The translations under genes were made by a program, and so were the position numbers. Below the pieces are notes generated by a model. The model was given only the letters and a program-made list of their open reading frames with translations. It was not told where the DNA came from and ran no database searches. From a bacterium (GTDB lineage: Bacteria > B130-G9), in contig JAGHCW010000204.1 in assembly GCA_021160245.1 (NCBI GenBank), forward strand, positions 1-10,405: a DNA stretch of 10,405 bases. The letters run 5' to 3'. This document shows, piece after piece, positions 2,829-9,738 of the stretch; position 1 is the first letter of the stretch, and each line of letters opens with the position of its first letter.

Positions 2829-4940
2829 GTGCCACGCTCCAAACGACGAAGAGAGTTGAGAAGGGCAACGAAAAGGCAAGGGACGAGTCAAGCTCGCAAC
2901 ATCCATGCTCTTTCGGCTCGCATTCTGCTACTGATGCTTCTCGCGCTCATTCCGCTCGTCTTCACAACATATACCCAGGACAGATTCAGCTATATCAAGC
3001 TCGCCTCATTGCAGCTAGTCATTCCGCTGCTTCTTGCCATGGTCGGGCTCACGCTTGGCCCGCAGCTCAAACTTCTCATCAAAGGCCCGATGGTCGCGCC
3101 GGCCCTATTTTTCATCGCTTCTCTATTTGGTTCGGTGGTTTTTGCGGCCAATAAGCCCTGGGCCGCTCGGGGCGCTGTTAACCTACTCCTCATGTTCGTC
3201 CTTCTCTTCGCATGCCATGCGCTGTCATCGCTCGGCCTAAGCCTCAAGAAAGTCCTGATAACGGTTGTCATAGTCGGCACGCTCGTCTCCCTGCTCGGAG
3301 TGATTCAATACTACGAGATTCTCGGACAGAGACGCCTTCCCGACAACTACGGTGAACTCCAAACGCCCACAACCATCGGGCACAACAACTTCGCCGCGGC
3401 CTATATCATAATGTGCATCCCGGCCACCATCTCGCTTCTCGTGAGCGCGACCGCTGTCTGGGTCTATGCAGCTTTGGGCGCGTGCCTCTTCATTCAGCTT
3501 TACTATCTTCTGATTTCGGCGAGCCGGGGCGGCTGGATCGGATTCGTCGCGAGTATGCTCTTCTGGGGTTTATGGGCGTATATCCTCCCGAGTATCGCAC
3601 GCTCCGCCTCCGGAAAACCCAGGTGGACGCGACTGGTCGTTCTTATCGCGCCGCTTCTGCTCGGAGTCTCAATCGTGGTGTTGCTCATCCCATCCACCAG
3701 GAGATTGGTCACCGAAAAGGTCGCAGCCACATTTGATCTCTCCGACAAGCCTGTCCAGTTCAGGCTGCTTACTTGGCGATCCACGCTGAAGATGATACGC
3801 GATGAGCCGCTCGGCGTCGGCTTCAGGAACTTCGAGATGCGCTATCCGGAGTACAGGTCGGTCAAAGAACATCGAATAACAGGCCGATTCAGGAAGGTCC
3901 AAAAAACGCACAATGAGTTCCTGCAGGCTGCGGCGGAACTCGGCGCCTTCGGATTCGTGGCCTTCCTGTTCTTCATCGCGGCCATCTTCAAAGGCGGATT
4001 CGCGGTGGCAAAATCTGCAAAAAACCAACAGACCCGGCTGATGTCCCAGGCGGTTCTCGTTGGCATCACCGCGATGCTCGTCCACTCGCTCTTCAGCTTT
4101 CCGCTGCATCTGCCTGTTACAACCATGATGTTCTTCATATTCTGCGGCCTCATCTCCGGCGCCTCAACACCGGCGCAATATATGCCCGCTGAACCAGCCA
4201 TAAATAGAAAGGTTGCGATCAAGCGGACGGCGGTTGTCTTGACGCTGGTCCTGGTCGTCAGCATCCTGCAGCTCACCTCGTCGGAATATCTGGCGGATTA
4301 CTACCGCTCAAAGGGGCTAACGCTCAAGTCAAAGAGGCGGTTCTCATCCGCTCTGCCGCTTTTCCAAAAGGCCTCTGAGTTCTGCGGCTCGGACTTCCTG
4401 AACCACTATCTAGCGGCCGTCTGCCTTCGGAACATGGGCAAGTTTGACGAGGCGATTGGCGAATCTCTGTCAGCGCTTGAATGCAACAGAAACGACCGGC
4501 ATTCCGTCTTCAATCTCGGGTCGATTTACGCCTACAAGGGCATGCCCAGCAGGGCGATACAGCGATTTAGACAGGTCTTAGCAATCGACCCGGACTATTT
4601 GCAGGCCTACTTCAACATGGGCGCAGTATATGCCCAACAGGGCAGACGGGGCCTAGCCGTAACGGCGTATGAAAACGTTTTACGCATCGATCCCACTATG
4701 ACCGAGGCGTGCCACAACATGGTCATGCTGCTGGAGCAAATGGGCAAGCAAACCGAGGCGAGGGGTCATCTCTTGAAGTGTATCGACAGCAAGCCTGACT
4801 TTCAGCTCTATCTCGACCTCGCCCGCGTCTATGGCGAATTGGGGCAGATCGGCAACGCGCAACGGACTCTCAACGACGCCAAGACGCTCTTTCGTAGCGA
4901 AAAGCGAATAAACGAGGCGCTCCGAAAGCTGCCAAAATGA
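2829..4940 (+). CDS. O-antigen ligase/polymerase-type (Wzy_C) membrane protein with C-terminal TPR repeats
   Basis: This 703-residue protein begins with a strongly basic tail (PRSKRRRELRRATKRQ), then about a dozen hydrophobic segments between residues 30 and 484, then a soluble part of about 215 residues. Wzy_C/WaaL-family marks are TIGHNNFAAAY (182-192), SASRGGWIGF (230-239), a long presumably extracytoplasmic loop (about 288-370) with W316, PLGVGFRNFE at 327-336 and the conserved H361 in KTHNEFLQAAAELGAFGF, followed by more membrane segments. WaaL-type ligases join glycan from undecaprenyl diphosphate to an acceptor, and Wzy proteins polymerise repeat units; the sequence does not separate the two. 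From about 486 to 690 there are five or six TPR-like units (for example 557-590 and 591-624, each ending in IDP-like turns), likely outside the cytoplasm and suited to holding a partner protein. The stop overlaps the next start (ATGA), implying coupling to the following membrane protein. Confidence 0.87.
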   Translation: MPRSKRRRELRRATKRQGTSQARNIHALSARILLLMLLALIPLVFTTYTQDRFSYIKLASLQLVIPLLLAMVGLTLGPQLKLLIKGPMVAPALFFIASLFGSVVFAANKPWAARGAVNLLLMFVLLFACHALSSLGLSLKKVLITVVIVGTLVSLLGVIQYYEILGQRRLPDNYGELQTPTTIGHNNFAAAYIIMCIPATISLLVSATAVWVYAALGACLFIQLYYLLISASRGGWIGFVASMLFWGLWAYILPSIARSASGKPRWTRLVVLIAPLLLGVSIVVLLIPSTRRLVTEKVAATFDLSDKPVQFRLLTWRSTLKMIRDEPLGVGFRNFEMRYPEYRSVKEHRITGRFRKVQKTHNEFLQAAAELGAFGFVAFLFFIAAIFKGGFAVAKSAKNQQTRLMSQAVLVGITAMLVHSLFSFPLHLPVTTMMFFIFCGLISGASTPAQYMPAEPAINRKVAIKRTAVVLTLVLVVSILQLTSSEYLADYYRSKGLTLKSKRRFSSALPLFQKASEFCGSDFLNHYLAAVCLRNMGKFDEAIGESLSALECNRNDRHSVFNLGSIYAYKGMPSRAIQRFRQVLAIDPDYLQAYFNMGAVYAQQGRRGLAVTAYENVLRIDPTMTEACHNMVMLLEQMGKQTEARGHLLKCIDSKPDFQLYLDLARVYGELGQIGNAQRTLNDAKTLFRSEKRINEALRKLPK

Positions 4941-6811
4941 TCTTAGGCACACATTCTGTCAAGCTCACCACCTGGCTCGCCCTGATCGCTTTGGTTCTGC
5001 TCCCATTCATTCTCCAGATAATGATATGCGGACCCGACCCACGCGGGGTCACTCATCCACCCTCCCTCGACCGCGCGATACATATTGACCCCACGCGGCC
5101 AGCCCCGACCGTCGCCCTTGCGCCTCTTGCCGCCGGTGCGCCATCGATCTGCATCCTACTCGTTTTCATCATCGCTCGGATGCTATTCTCAGACGCAATT
5201 GCTCTCTCGGCGGCCTTCTTCACAGCTCTTTCGTTATCCATCAGTTTCTCACCGTTCATCGGCTGCCCAAGACCAGTATATGTTCTCGCCCACCTCGTCG
5301 CTTGGGCCGCATGCGTCTGGGCCACGCGCCGGCCACAATGGACCGCATCGTGTCTCGCGGGAGCCCTGACTGGCCTCGCGGCAACGGTTCAGCCAGCCGC
5401 CCTAGTCTTCCTGCCTGTCGCGATATGGACGGTCGAGAAGCGTAAGAGAATACTCTTGGCGGCCGCCTTGATCCCAGGCGCGCTCGCCGGCCTCCTTCTC
5501 GGGCTATTGCCCGCGATTACCCGCCTGCCGCTCGCGCTTGCGGGATTCGCCGAGAGCAGACGCCAGTGGGCTATCATAGATAGCAATTCTGACGGCCTAT
5601 TCTCAGCGTGGGCCATGCTTAAAGAGATGACCACCGACCTCGGCCTCCCAATCATGATTCTTGCGGGTATAGGGGTCCTCGTTGCCGTGTCGAGGCGCCG
5701 GCGGGAGGCCATCTGGGCTGCAAGCTATGCCGCGCTCTTTCTTTGGACGAAGCCCATGTCACTCGACCTGGGCTCTGCTGCTTGGGCGTGGCTCGTACCC
5801 CCGGTGGGGATCCTGGCAGCGGTTGGAGCCATCTCTATCACACGGGCCGTCGGAAGAAGAACCCGCTTGCTAACCCCGTTGCTTGCGTCAATCATCATCC
5901 TCGGCGCCTCATGCATGCCCGTCACGACTCTTTTGGACTACCCCGCTGAGGTCTGTGCCGCGAGAGATGGCTTTGAGCGCAATTGGCGGCAGGTTGATGA
6001 GGGAACGGCTCTGCCTCAGACGCCGATCCCACTTGCCGCCCTTCTCGAAGACCATTTCAGACAAGACCTTGAGAGCAGCAGGAGATACTCGATCCACGAT
6101 ATGGGTCAGACATTCATCAACTCCATTCTTTTCTGCAAGAAACCGCCCGTATTCGTCGATTATATCTCAGCTGGCGTCCGGGACTTCGCCATCAGTTCAT
6201 CCTCATTAGAGCTCTTCTCCGTCTTTCCGGCAATGAAGAGCCTGATCGCTCAGGTTCAGGCGAGATGCAAACCATACTTGCAATGCGGCGGCAGGACAGG
6301 TCCCAATCCATCGTGCCACATTTACAAATATGAGGGCCCGGTCGCTGAAGGTTCTGCCGCCCCGAACGATAGGCCGGCCTCACTTCGAGAATACTTAAAT
6401 CGGAACCCATCCGGGTCGATAATCATAATGTGCGTTAGGGGTCGGCCGTCCAACGAGACGTGGAACCAGCTCTTCAGGGCGATGATCCGAATCGGCGCGC
6501 CTCGTGAAGTCCAACCACACCTGGGCGCCTCGTTTGCCCTTGTGGGGATAATGGACGCTTCCCTTGGCTCTGCCGTGTGGCGGACGGGGGTCCAGGAGGT
6601 CGTCATCAAGATCGACGCGGGCGAGGAGATCGGCTCCACGGGTATTGTCGCGCCTCGCAGGATAGTAGCAAGGAGTATAGGCGATGGCGACCCACCCGGG
6701 CGGGCGATTATCTCCGTCGGCGGAGCTAACTGCTCAGCCAACACCGACGGCGTCAACGCGGCCGTAATTGATACGAATGGCCATTGCATTTCGCGAGCAT
6801 ACTTTCAATAG
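4937..6811 (+). CDS. GT-C-like polytopic membrane protein with C-terminal ILEI/FAM3-like region
   Basis: This 624-residue protein has an N-terminal membrane half and a soluble C-terminal half. Hydrophobic segments lie near 12-30, 58-80, 85-106, 115-129, 138-163, 172-193, 235-251, 258-270, 281-303 and 311-332. The pattern, with HPP at 40-42 and an RMLFS...ALSAAFFTALS stretch (81-98), recalls GT-C polyprenyl-phosphate-sugar glycosyltransferases (ArnT/PMT class), but the first loop is short and lacks a clear Asp-Glu pair, so activity is doubtful. Residues about 340-480 are soluble and unrecognised, with several Cys (C400, C444, C450, C460). Residues about 481-624 resemble ILEI/FAM3 domains: SGSIIIMCVRG (492-502), LFRAMIRIGAP (512-522), ASFALVGIMD (531-540), then GRAIISVGG...TDGVNAAVIDTNG (588-615). 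The halves appear in swapped order. Translationally coupled to the O-antigen-ligase-like gene, it probably acts in the same surface-glycan process. A specific reaction cannot be assigned. Confidence 0.68.
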   Translation: MILGTHSVKLTTWLALIALVLLPFILQIMICGPDPRGVTHPPSLDRAIHIDPTRPAPTVALAPLAAGAPSICILLVFIIARMLFSDAIALSAAFFTALSLSISFSPFIGCPRPVYVLAHLVAWAACVWATRRPQWTASCLAGALTGLAATVQPAALVFLPVAIWTVEKRKRILLAAALIPGALAGLLLGLLPAITRLPLALAGFAESRRQWAIIDSNSDGLFSAWAMLKEMTTDLGLPIMILAGIGVLVAVSRRRREAIWAASYAALFLWTKPMSLDLGSAAWAWLVPPVGILAAVGAISITRAVGRRTRLLTPLLASIIILGASCMPVTTLLDYPAEVCAARDGFERNWRQVDEGTALPQTPIPLAALLEDHFRQDLESSRRYSIHDMGQTFINSILFCKKPPVFVDYISAGVRDFAISSSSLELFSVFPAMKSLIAQVQARCKPYLQCGGRTGPNPSCHIYKYEGPVAEGSAAPNDRPASLREYLNRNPSGSIIIMCVRGRPSNETWNQLFRAMIRIGAPREVQPHLGASFALVGIMDASLGSAVWRTGVQEVVIKIDAGEEIGSTGIVAPRRIVARSIGDGDPPGRAIISVGGANCSANTDGVNAAVIDTNGHCISRAYFQ

Positions 6812-6823
6812 GGAGAAATTATA

Positions 6824-7783
6824 ATGATATACGGCGCAATCGACATAGGGACCGGCTCCGTGCTCTGTCTGGCCGCCGAACGGAGCGATGACGAAGCATG
6901 GCATGAACTCATCAGTGAGAGTGTGATAACCTCACTTGGCGCCGGGACGGAGATGAACTCAAGCGTCGCCCTTGAGAGCCAGGGACGGACGATTGCCGCC
7001 GTCGTGGACTACGTGCAAAGGCTGAAGGCGCTCGGTGCGGGCCACATATCACTCGTTGGTACAAGCGCGCTTCGACGGGCGGAGAATCGCGAGGAGTTCA
7101 TCGAGAGAGTCCGCTGTGAGACAGGGCTTTCTGTCGAGGTCATATCGGGAGAGGAGGAGGGCAGGCTTACATTCTGGGGCGCGACGCAAGGGCTTCTGAC
7201 CCGGGCAAGGCCGGTAGTCGTTATGGATGTGGGTGGGGGTAGCAGCGAGCTCGTGTTTGGGAGGGCTGCATCCGGGAGGGCGCCCGCGTCTCCAAATATC
7301 GGCGTCAGCATCCCCATCGGCGCCCTAGCCCTCACTGACCGTTTCATTTCCGCATACCCTATATCGACAGGGGAGTCATATCAGCTTAAGAAGGAGATTG
7401 ACGAGGCGCTCTGCACTGAGGAAGTTCGGACGCTCGTGGAATCCGCAAACCGGGCTTCAGAGAGGCCGCTCCTGGTCGGCGTGGGTGGGTCCGCAACGAC
7501 CCTCGTGGCCATGCGGGATGAACTCGACCCATACGTGCCCTCAAGAGTCCATCTCTCAAGCGTTACCCGGAGTGTTCTACATAAGCACATCGAGCGGCTT
7601 GGGGCGATGTCGCTTGATCGGCGCCATCGTGTTGTTGGCCTGCCGAAGGGCCGCGCGCCTGTTATAGACGCCGGACTCTCAATCCTTCACGCCATTATGA
7701 ACCTGTTCGGCGCCGACTCGATGACGGTTTCCGACAGGGGTCTGCGGCACGGCATCATCATCCGCGATGCTAGCCGGCTGTAG
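6824..7783 (+). CDS. Ppx/GppA-family exopolyphosphatase / guanosine pentaphosphate phosphohydrolase
   Basis: This 319-residue protein equals the two-domain core of the Ppx/GppA family, without the extra C-terminal helical domains of E. coli Ppx (about 510 residues). Visible motifs of the ASKHA-fold phosphatase are AIDIGTGSV at 5-13 (phosphate 1), TSALRRAENREEF at 80-92, ISGEEEGRL at 107-115 with the catalytic Glu at 111 or 112, MDVGGGSSELVFG at 134-146 (phosphate 2), GVGGSATTLVAM at 219-230 and RAPVIDAGLSIL at 277-288. These enzymes strip terminal phosphate from inorganic polyphosphate and, in some members, convert pppGpp to ppGpp; the sequence does not tell which. GGGAG at 6811-6815 sits 8 bases before the ATG, overlapping the end of the previous gene, so it is the last member of the plus-strand run. 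Canonical DIGSNS reads DIGTGS here, a variant compatible with the nucleotide/phosphate loop. Confidence 0.92.
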   Translation: MIYGAIDIGTGSVLCLAAERSDDEAWHELISESVITSLGAGTEMNSSVALESQGRTIAAVVDYVQRLKALGAGHISLVGTSALRRAENREEFIERVRCETGLSVEVISGEEEGRLTFWGATQGLLTRARPVVVMDVGGGSSELVFGRAASGRAPASPNIGVSIPIGALALTDRFISAYPISTGESYQLKKEIDEALCTEEVRTLVESANRASERPLLVGVGGSATTLVAMRDELDPYVPSRVHLSSVTRSVLHKHIERLGAMSLDRRHRVVGLPKGRAPVIDAGLSILHAIMNLFGADSMTVSDRGLRHGIIIRDASRL

Positions 7784-7819: not shown

Positions 7820-8383
7820 TCAGACCACAGCATGTACCCGGGGCATCTTCATCGTCGTCCCGGTTATCCGGCCATATCGCTCCCTCAGCTGGTCGAAGTC
7901 CATCCGCAAAAAGTCCAGAATCTCCTCATCCGCAAAGCGTGAGATGTAGCCATCAATCATCGCCTTCAGCCGCTCATCGAAGGCTCTTCGCGAATGCCCA
8001 TGGGCGTAATTCTTGCCGGGGAAGCGGCGAATGTCACCGTCGAATTCAGGGCTTATGTGATAGAGCTCGTGGAATAAGGTCAGCAGTTTCGTCTCAAACC
8101 GCAGGTTCTGGAATCTAGGGAAATAAAAATATAGCACATAGAGAATCCGCCGCTCGCCTATCTCAATTGTGGGGTAGGCAAACTCCCGACCGCGATGCTT
8201 AATGCTCGCCTTGCCGCCCGGGAACCGTGTGGGGAATATCTTGGCATAGACCCCCCGCAGAGATCGCTTTCTAGACTTAGCGAAGCAAAGCAACAGCGCT
8301 TGTGGGTCTATGTGAGAGAATTCGCCGACATTCCGGCAGACATGCTCGGTTATCTCCTGCAGGCAATCAGTAACGTCTATCAT
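7820..8383 (-). CDS. Putative zinc metallopeptidase-like protein with HELYH motif, function unknown
   Basis: This 187-residue soluble protein has no signal peptide or membrane segment. The core is FETKLLTLFHELYHISPEF (96-114), where H105, E106 and H109 form an HExxH zinc site, followed by a conserved-looking FDGDIRRFPGKNYAHGHS (114-131) that could supply a third ligand at H128 or H130. Before it lie PTIEIGERRILYVLYFYFPRF (71-91), in strand-rich sequence, and an N-terminal helix. The layout resembles a small bacterial family annotated only as putative metallopeptidase; no substrate is known to me. Its ATG shares one base with the stop of the upstream oxidoreductase gene (TGATG), so translation is probably coupled. 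An AAGGA lies 12 bases upstream and an AGGG only 3 bases upstream, so initiation may rely on the coupling. Small size and lack of export signals argue for a cytoplasmic role. Confidence 0.8.
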   Translation of the reverse strand: MIDVTDCLQEITEHVCRNVGEFSHIDPQALLLCFAKSRKRSLRGVYAKIFPTRFPGGKASIKHRGREFAYPTIEIGERRILYVLYFYFPRFQNLRFETKLLTLFHELYHISPEFDGDIRRFPGKNYAHGHSRRAFDERLKAMIDGYISRFADEEILDFLRMDFDQLRERYGRITGTTMKMPRVHAVV

Positions 8384-9699
8384 CAGCCCTTAAGGTCCTT
8401 CTCGAGCAGCCTCGCCGCGTCTTGACCAAAAAGTATCGAGTTACTGACGTTTCTCGTGATCGGGTATATCTGGGCTGTGTTGTAGATGTAGAACCGCTTG
8501 AATAGCGTGCTGTGCTCCGGCAGCAACTTGGAGTAATTGAGCGTGTAGTAGGGGTCCGCGTGTGGGTGCCGGAACACGTGAAAACTCTCTATCTGATCGG
8601 CGGTAAAACCGGGCGATATCCGCCCAAGCGCCTCGACGAACTGATCGAATAACTCCTCATCAGATAGGCTATTCAACCGATGCTCCTCGGGTAAATAATT
8701 CGGCAGATAAATTACCGAGCGACCATCAAACTCCGGGCGGAGGTGCGAGAACTCAATAATACCGGGGAAGGGGATGGCGCTGTCTCCGATATTCAGCCAG
8801 AAGAATTTGGAAAAAGGCCTTTTCAAGATGATCGACATGTTAAGAACTGTCTGATATCTGATCGACGCAAGCCGCGTCCTGTAGCCGTCTGGAAAGAAAT
8901 CGACCGCCGAAAGCAGCGCCGGTAGCGGTATGGATGATATGACCGCGCGATGCACACGCTTGCCGAGCTTCGACTCTATCTGAAACTCACCCTCACGTGT
9001 CCTTTCGATTCCGGTGACTTTGCATTCAGTTCGAACCTCACCACCCATCTGGGCGATTCTCTTCATGTATTCATCAATGAGAATGGCGACACTGCCGCTT
9101 ACGTAGCCAAAGTGCTCAAGCGCGCTGCCCTCCCTTTTCGAACCCGCGCGCCTCGTGGTCCTTGCCCAGAGCCAAGAGAGCGGTATCTGGTCTTCAAAGC
9201 AATCGAATTTGCTCTTCATGAGGTGTGACCAGACGACTTCGTATGCCCGCTCGCCGGTCCATCTCTTAAGCCAGCGGGTTGCCGAGACGCTCTCCAGGGG
9301 CCGCCAGTCCGTCTTTCGCTGAAGCAGAAGCATGGCGAGACCGAAGCGGAGGCGTGACGTAAGGCTGAGCGCGCCGAAACGGAGCAGGTCCAACGGAGTC
9401 GTGAAATCCCACTGGCGGCCGCTTGAGAACATCCCCATTCGGCAATCACCCCACTTTATATGCTCGGACAGCCCGAACTCGCTCATCTGGTTCAATATCA
9501 CCCGGTCGGTGTCGCAGAGGAAATGGTGATACATCTCCAGTCGCGTGCCACAGACCTCGAACGTGCGAGCAAGACCGCCCGGCTCCTCGTCGCTCTCATA
9601 AACGGTTACGTCACCCAAGCCTCGGCTCAGGCAGTTATACGCCGCAGAAAGACCGAGTATGCCCCCGCCCAGAATCGCTATGTTCGCTCGCTTACCCAT
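8383..9699 (-). CDS. FAD-dependent oxidoreductase, amine oxidase / protoporphyrinogen oxidase-like fold
   Basis: This 438-residue protein starts with an FAD-binding Rossmann motif, IAILGGGILGLSAAYNCLSRG (7-27), an acidic residue after the second strand (E35 in VYESD) and the EPGGLART stretch (39-46) typical of amine-oxidase/PPOX/phytoene-desaturase folds. A middle substrate-domain portion includes SGSVAILIDEY (201-211), which is followed by a second dinucleotide-side motif (VISSIPLPAL, 253-262). The C-terminal FAD contact region reads NTAQIYPITRNVSNSILFGQDAARLL (407-432) in place of the usual AGD...SG..AA. Proteins of this subtype often sit in polysaccharide or lipid-carrier gene clusters, but their substrates are undefined. 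An in-frame GTG at 9717 exists, but ATG at 9699 is preferred because of its AGGAG and because it starts just before the FAD strand. It lies 39 bases after the acyl-CoA synthetase stop and overlaps the metallopeptidase-like gene by one base. Confidence 0.88.
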   Translation of the reverse strand: MGKRANIAILGGGILGLSAAYNCLSRGLGDVTVYESDEEPGGLARTFEVCGTRLEMYHHFLCDTDRVILNQMSEFGLSEHIKWGDCRMGMFSSGRQWDFTTPLDLLRFGALSLTSRLRFGLAMLLLQRKTDWRPLESVSATRWLKRWTGERAYEVVWSHLMKSKFDCFEDQIPLSWLWARTTRRAGSKREGSALEHFGYVSGSVAILIDEYMKRIAQMGGEVRTECKVTGIERTREGEFQIESKLGKRVHRAVISSIPLPALLSAVDFFPDGYRTRLASIRYQTVLNMSIILKRPFSKFFWLNIGDSAIPFPGIIEFSHLRPEFDGRSVIYLPNYLPEEHRLNSLSDEELFDQFVEALGRISPGFTADQIESFHVFRHPHADPYYTLNYSKLLPEHSTLFKRFYIYNTAQIYPITRNVSNSILFGQDAARLLEKDLKG

Positions 9700-9704
9700 C
9701 GCTG

Positions 9705-9709
9705 CTCCT
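9705..9709 (-). promoter_or_regulatory. Ribosome binding site that decides the oxidoreductase start
   Basis: On the minus strand AGGAG ends 5 bases before the ATG at 9699. The upstream GTG at 9717 would add six residues (VIAGAA) and would place this ribosome site inside the coding region, so the ATG is preferred. Confidence 0.75.
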
Positions 9710-9738
9710 GCTATCACTATCCATCAATCAGACAAATA

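Follow-up and report, generated by a model that had tools for sequence, protein, structure and literature searches.

Evidence for a conserved natural circular permutation of the ILEI/FAM3 domain in Coatesbacteria

Gene content and layout of the locus

The window, meaning the whole stretch of 10,405 nucleotides analyzed here, is contig 207 of a draft genome (3.43 Mb) assigned to the Coatesbacteria group. It carries a real 624-residue open reading frame on the forward strand (4937-6811, +), which begins with ATG and encodes a PMT_2/GT-C-like membrane part followed by a C-terminal ILEI domain that appears to be circularly permuted. The start codon overlaps the stop codon of the upstream neighbor (ATGA), an O-antigen ligase-like protein with C-terminal TPRs (2829-4940, +; Pfam Wzy_C 4.9e-19), which is itself preceded by a conserved Rex-like transcriptional regulator (2142-2804, +; Pfam Put_DNA-bind_N 1.4e-13, CoA_binding 2.3e-15). 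Downstream lies a Ppx/GppA phosphatase (6824-7783, +; Pfam 3e-52), and the same neighbor is present in L031, L032 and L033. On the opposite strand, a 187-residue open reading frame with a PhageMetallopep match (7820-8383, -; PF18894, 8e-7) is immediately adjoined by an FAD amine-oxidase-like gene (8383-9717, -).

Inspection of the 624-residue protein reveals five consecutive segments on the forward strand. Residues 1-470 (4937-6346) form the membrane part, a distant relative of GT-C/PMT_2 proteins with approximately eight transmembrane segments by hydropathy. The segment corresponding to the second half of an ILEI domain (profile positions 70-139) comes first, at residues 481-550 (6377-6586), and is joined by a short junction (residues 551-564, 6587-6628) to the first half, which comprises the N-terminal strands (IGSTGIVAPRRIVARSIGD..GRAIISVGG; residues 565-598, 6629-6730) and the GVN hairpin up to the F of FDT at the end of the protein (residues 599-624, 6731-6808). 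The whole domain occupies approximately 6347-6808, or ~145 residues, a bit longer at both ends than the 6377-6808 assigned by the first-pass annotation.

The two halves of the domain match the ILEI profile in reversed order

Searching the full protein with the Pfam ILEI model (PF15711; cut-off 27 bits) recovers residues 480-538 as profile positions 29-87 only, with an E value of 1.3e-4. When the C-terminal piece of the window protein is used, this second-half match rises above the cut-off (27.2 bits, E 5.6e-6), and the orthologue L035, described below, reaches 39.5 bits. No NCBIfam match was returned. The present case illustrates why routine annotation with Pfam overlooks one half of the domain.

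To recover both halves, a canonical profile was built from 18 canonical ILEI domains, all from genomes of other phyla. This profile matches the window protein twice (E values at Z=1): model positions 70-139 align to residues 481-550 with an E value of 2.7e-12, and model positions 2-60 align to residues 565-623 with an E value of 6.5e-6. The reversed pair of matches bears out the first-pass proposal that the second half comes first (placed there at residues 481-540) and the first half follows (588-624), and the same pair is observed in the window protein and in each of its three orthologues, the four permuted sequences of our data set. A search with the canonical profile upstream of residue 480 of the window protein finds no first half, in agreement with the earlier claim that the preceding region holds no such copy. 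The canonical order, designated A-B-C, gives way to C-A-B in all four proteins.

The limited reach of the Pfam model, which detects positions 29-87 alone, would be expected if the resemblance to ILEI were confined to the second half and the tail were unrelated. This is almost certainly not the case. The first-half match is independently significant in all four proteins, with E values from 6.5e-6 to 2.7e-9 (Z=1) and a constant register, and the tail of the window protein (residues 563-621, 59 residues) shares 48% identity with the first half of L001, a canonical ILEI protein encoded in the same genome. Shuffling of the whole domain in 2,000 replicates gives a maximum of 5.0 bits, compared with 47.4 bits for the window protein against the single profile and 54.8 bits against the tandem profile introduced below. 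Shuffling only the last 70 residues leaves a best score of 45.8 bits in 2,000 replicates, and shuffling only the first 80 residues leaves 33.5 bits; in each case, the contribution of that half alone is lost.

The continuity of the domain is captured by a tandem profile, in which the canonical ILEI profile is written twice in a row. Each of the four proteins gives one near-gapless alignment from model position 70 to 210, spanning ~143 residues with about three inserted residues and scoring 54.4-68.1 bits. Within this alignment, the junction at residues 551-564 exceeds the canonical flanks by only ~2 residues. Restoring the halves to canonical order yields, for all four proteins, one continuous single-profile match of 55-68 bits. 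The canonical-profile matches skip model positions 61-69, which form the loop after FDT and therefore mark the place of the new termini. The window protein ends at F623-Q624, one residue past the F of FDT, and the three orthologues likewise terminate one residue past this F, with FQ, FG or FE as the endings among the four. The stop at the FDT position that had been read from the window sequence is thus located to within one residue.

If the canonical domain is divided into N-terminal strands (A), an RGxN hairpin up to FDT (B), and a helix-strand-helix-strand second half (C), the arrangement in these proteins is C-A-B. The strands that flank the old termini probably connect them directly, practically free of added linker, and the chain now begins and ends in the loop after FDT. 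The FAM3/ILEI fold appears to tolerate new termini after the FDT strand.

The swapped order is conserved among Coatesbacteria

A search of 98 genomes identifies orthologues in three other genomes of the same taxonomic family, with 50-59% identity over the whole domain, and the permuted domain is present in all four Coatesbacteria genomes examined. Order and cut point are the same in all three orthologues as in the window protein. The four genomes share a common gene order (NAD(P)HX repair enzyme, Rex, Wzy_C/TPR ligase, permuted ILEI, Ppx/GppA), and the ILEI start codon overlaps the ligase stop codon in every one, with the ATGA arrangement in two. Each of the three orthologues is a protein of ~200 residues that consists of one N-terminal transmembrane helix and the permuted domain, which makes up nearly all of the soluble protein; in L035 (~197 residues), the soluble part covers about residues 50-197. 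For every pair, dN is lower than dS; the closest pair gives a dN of 0.15 and a dS of 0.52, and dS is saturated in the other pairs. The permuted gene is under purifying selection.

These observations bear on whether the two halves form one fold at all, since two incomplete ILEI remnants left side by side by a decaying tandem could produce the same order. Tandem ILEI-ILEI proteins do exist (L047, below), partial loss of one could give this arrangement, and the residues of canonical function have been lost. We nevertheless consider decay very unlikely, as order, cut point and length are kept across four genomes at the identities and dN/dS relations given above, the domain is nearly the whole soluble protein in three of them, the tandem-profile alignment runs near-gapless through the junction, and the orthologue models as one domain (pTM 0.75).

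Structure models and fold comparison

AlphaFold2 models of the domain were generated from three-row alignments. The model of the window domain is poor (pLDDT 48.6), which makes its fold searches uninterpretable, and the model of orthologue L035 is usable (pLDDT 73.6, pTM 0.75). Comparison of the L035 model using VIA-align returns ILEI superfamily members in all of the top six rows, namely TMEM2 (Z 7.2), FAM3B (4.3), FAM3C (4.3 and 4.0), FAM3B E30 (4.0) and FAM3A (4.0), and the first unrelated chain follows at Z 3.1. On the tool's own scale, scores of 4-7 are ambiguous taken alone; the predicted model nonetheless finds the family expected from sequence in six of six top rows. The TMEM2 match (PDB 8c6i) covers 107 residues at 3.3 Å, with model residues 15-131 placed on chain residues 295-413. 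In the FAM3 rows, 87-98 residues are aligned, and the model ranges involved cover both halves; because VIA reports no more than ranges and does not document how it handles chain order, we claim no residue-level superposition of both halves on FAM3. Foldseek with the same model gives nothing at E ≤ 0.001, and TMEM2 appears at E 1.7. Querying the PDB by sequence, either with the permuted profile or with the orthologue, retrieves no relative; only the canonical profile does, as described below.

Taken with the reversed profile matches, the tandem-profile alignment and the shared locus in four of four genomes, these fold matches support the circular permutation first proposed from the window sequence. 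That the ILEI/FAM3 domain has been naturally permuted in Coatesbacteria, and conserved in this form, is well supported, and we regard as highly probable the complete reading of a natural C-A-B permutant of single origin that is membrane-anchored and whose gene overlaps a ligase gene.

Comparison with canonical ILEI domains

The FAM3/ILEI domain is known from human secreted proteins. The canonical bacterial profile matches the PDB entries of FAM3B, the POMGNT1 stem, TMEM2, FAM3A and FAM3C at E values of 1e-15 to 1e-19, and the bacterial ILEI domains consequently belong to this superfamily. The nearest reference is a canonical bacterial ILEI protein (PF15711) of 474 residues in the window's own genome (L001). 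It shares the motifs IGxTG..P..I..S.G, GxN..V.D..G, GSIV and GSA with the window protein and differs in its order, A-B-C versus C-A-B; unlike canonical bacterial ILEI domains, the permutants carry an invariant GRPS..W motif in the second half. FAM3A, FAM3B and FAM3C are among the best folds for the L035 model, and the permutants differ from these animal proteins and from the POMGNT1 stem in their permuted order, in the replacement of R129, D179 and R207, and in residing in a membrane-anchored bacterial protein. Among open-licence papers, we found no report of a permuted FAM3/ILEI domain.

The molecular function of the ILEI/FAM3 domain family, which is of medical interest, is still under debate. 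The permutant is a clean natural example of circular permutation: its position is conserved, it has a single origin, and other bacteria contain a plausible tandem precursor. As a small soluble domain, it should be easy to solve and test.

Sugar-binding residues and possible role

The POMGNT1 stem binds GlcNAc via Arg129, Asp179 and Arg207 (PMC9802357). In our alignment, these residues correspond to the R of RGIH, the D of KDEG and the R of WRDTW; the query was a human CEMIP stretch, used solely to read the TMEM2/POMGNT1 residues. All three are replaced in the permutants, where the window protein has D604, G502 and G530 at positions that vary among the orthologues. The data accordingly do not support lectin activity at the canonical site, and a lectin role for TMEM2 lectin-like domain 2 has likewise been judged unsupported on the same grounds (PMC10206443).

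The permuted domain would be kept membrane-anchored and probably extracytoplasmic, with its gene translationally overlapping that of the Wzy_C O-antigen ligase/TPR protein. We infer a location outside the cytoplasmic membrane for the protein and a joint action with the ligase. Gene order provides the link, and we tentatively suggest an accessory ligase partner that might handle a surface glycan or lipid-linked sugar through a site other than the POMGNT1/FAM3 GlcNAc site.

A degenerate GT-C-like membrane part in the window genome

The membrane part of the window protein matches Pfam PMT_2 with an E value of 0.012, under the Pfam cut-off, and matches the PMT_2 protein L018 by blastp at 4e-12; L018 itself scores 7.8e-15 against PMT_2. 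Residues 70-370 are distantly homologous to GT-C/PMT_2 glycosyltransferases, and the approximately eight transmembrane segments provide the polytopic topology of this group alongside the sequence homology. Alignment with L018 and L019 reveals what sets the window protein apart from these enzymes: loop 1 is shortened by a large deletion, and both the acidic DE motif of the first loop and the RTD motif, present in L018 and L019, are missing.

The homology to PMT_2 proteins, together with the occurrence of canonical ILEI on PMT_2 proteins of other bacteria (L047), would fit an active GT-C mannosyltransferase-type enzyme with the ILEI part as its substrate-binding module. Such an enzyme is highly improbable given the missing DE and RTD motifs, the loop 1 deletion, the absence of POMGNT1-type sugar-binding residues from the ILEI part, and orthologues that have no membrane part of this kind. 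From its sequence, the 470-residue PMT_2-like part is probably an inactive scaffold. A PMT_2-like part at this locus is found in the window genome only. The GT-C-like attachment described in the first-pass annotation consequently holds for the window genome and not for the orthologues, with their one transmembrane helix, nor does it extend to the acidic loop residues. In the window genome, the single transmembrane anchor may have been replaced by a degenerate GT-C-like membrane scaffold. Window positions 4937-6346 are thus a possible case of a dead GT-C scaffold substituting for a transmembrane anchor.

Origin of the permutation and related domain arrangements

Phylogenetic analysis groups the permutants as one clade (support 100), apart from the canonical ILEI proteins that their genomes also encode; the tree does not place them beside any particular canonical ILEI lineage. 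The permuted profile finds no further permutants outside the phylum among ~735 genomes (386 across the domain and 350 of another phylum), where every other match is either one half of a canonical domain or the tandem protein L047, and no relatives are found on viral contigs. The permutation would have arisen once, before the examined Coatesbacteria genera diverged.

Three further candidates were rejected as permutants. L072 (1423-1710) has a second-half-only ILEI in a 95-residue frame that overlaps the frame end of a CHAT-type protein and looked like a permutant; the downstream frame has no first half, and the hit looks like a canonical domain interrupted by a change of frame. L005, from the window's own genome (profile positions 26-87), has a weak first half preceding the match and hence canonical order. 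The end-to-end permuted-profile match in L047 is a tandem of two canonical domains.

Canonical ILEI domains elsewhere are carried by PMT_2/GT-C or YfhO-like membrane proteins. L047 (1-2232) encodes a membrane protein of PMT_2 type whose C-terminus bears a tandem pair of canonical ILEI domains. An L047-like tandem is a possible kind of precursor: most simply, a tandem ILEI-ILEI gene that shed its outer halves would leave C-A-B. The tandem with a lost half, raised in the first-pass annotation beside circular permutation, is better regarded as the likely route of origin than as a competing explanation, given that a conserved protein standing on its own has resulted.

The best fold match of the L035 model, TMEM2 lectin-like domain 1 (8c6i), has an order unlike that of the window protein, with the RG hairpin preceding the second half (profile match from residue 265). 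In TMEM2 265-413, the N-terminal ILEI strands seem to follow the second half, since the strands located there were matched to the A strands of the model (range 295-413). This domain may represent a third rotation, which we treat as a lead only. Three natural rotations, A-B-C (FAM3, POMGNT1, most bacteria), C-A-B (Coatesbacteria) and B-C-A (TMEM2/CEMIP lectin-like domain 1), would describe a family with freely movable termini that has been permuted repeatedly, a generalization we regard as rather doubtful.

Elsewhere in the window's own genome, on contig 52, L002 (454-3219) encodes a TPR protein with a 1143-residue open frame and two ILEI copies; an insertion of ~25 residues interrupts the first copy, and the second is partial. 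Proteins similar to it occur in two other Coatesbacteria genomes (L053 and L054).
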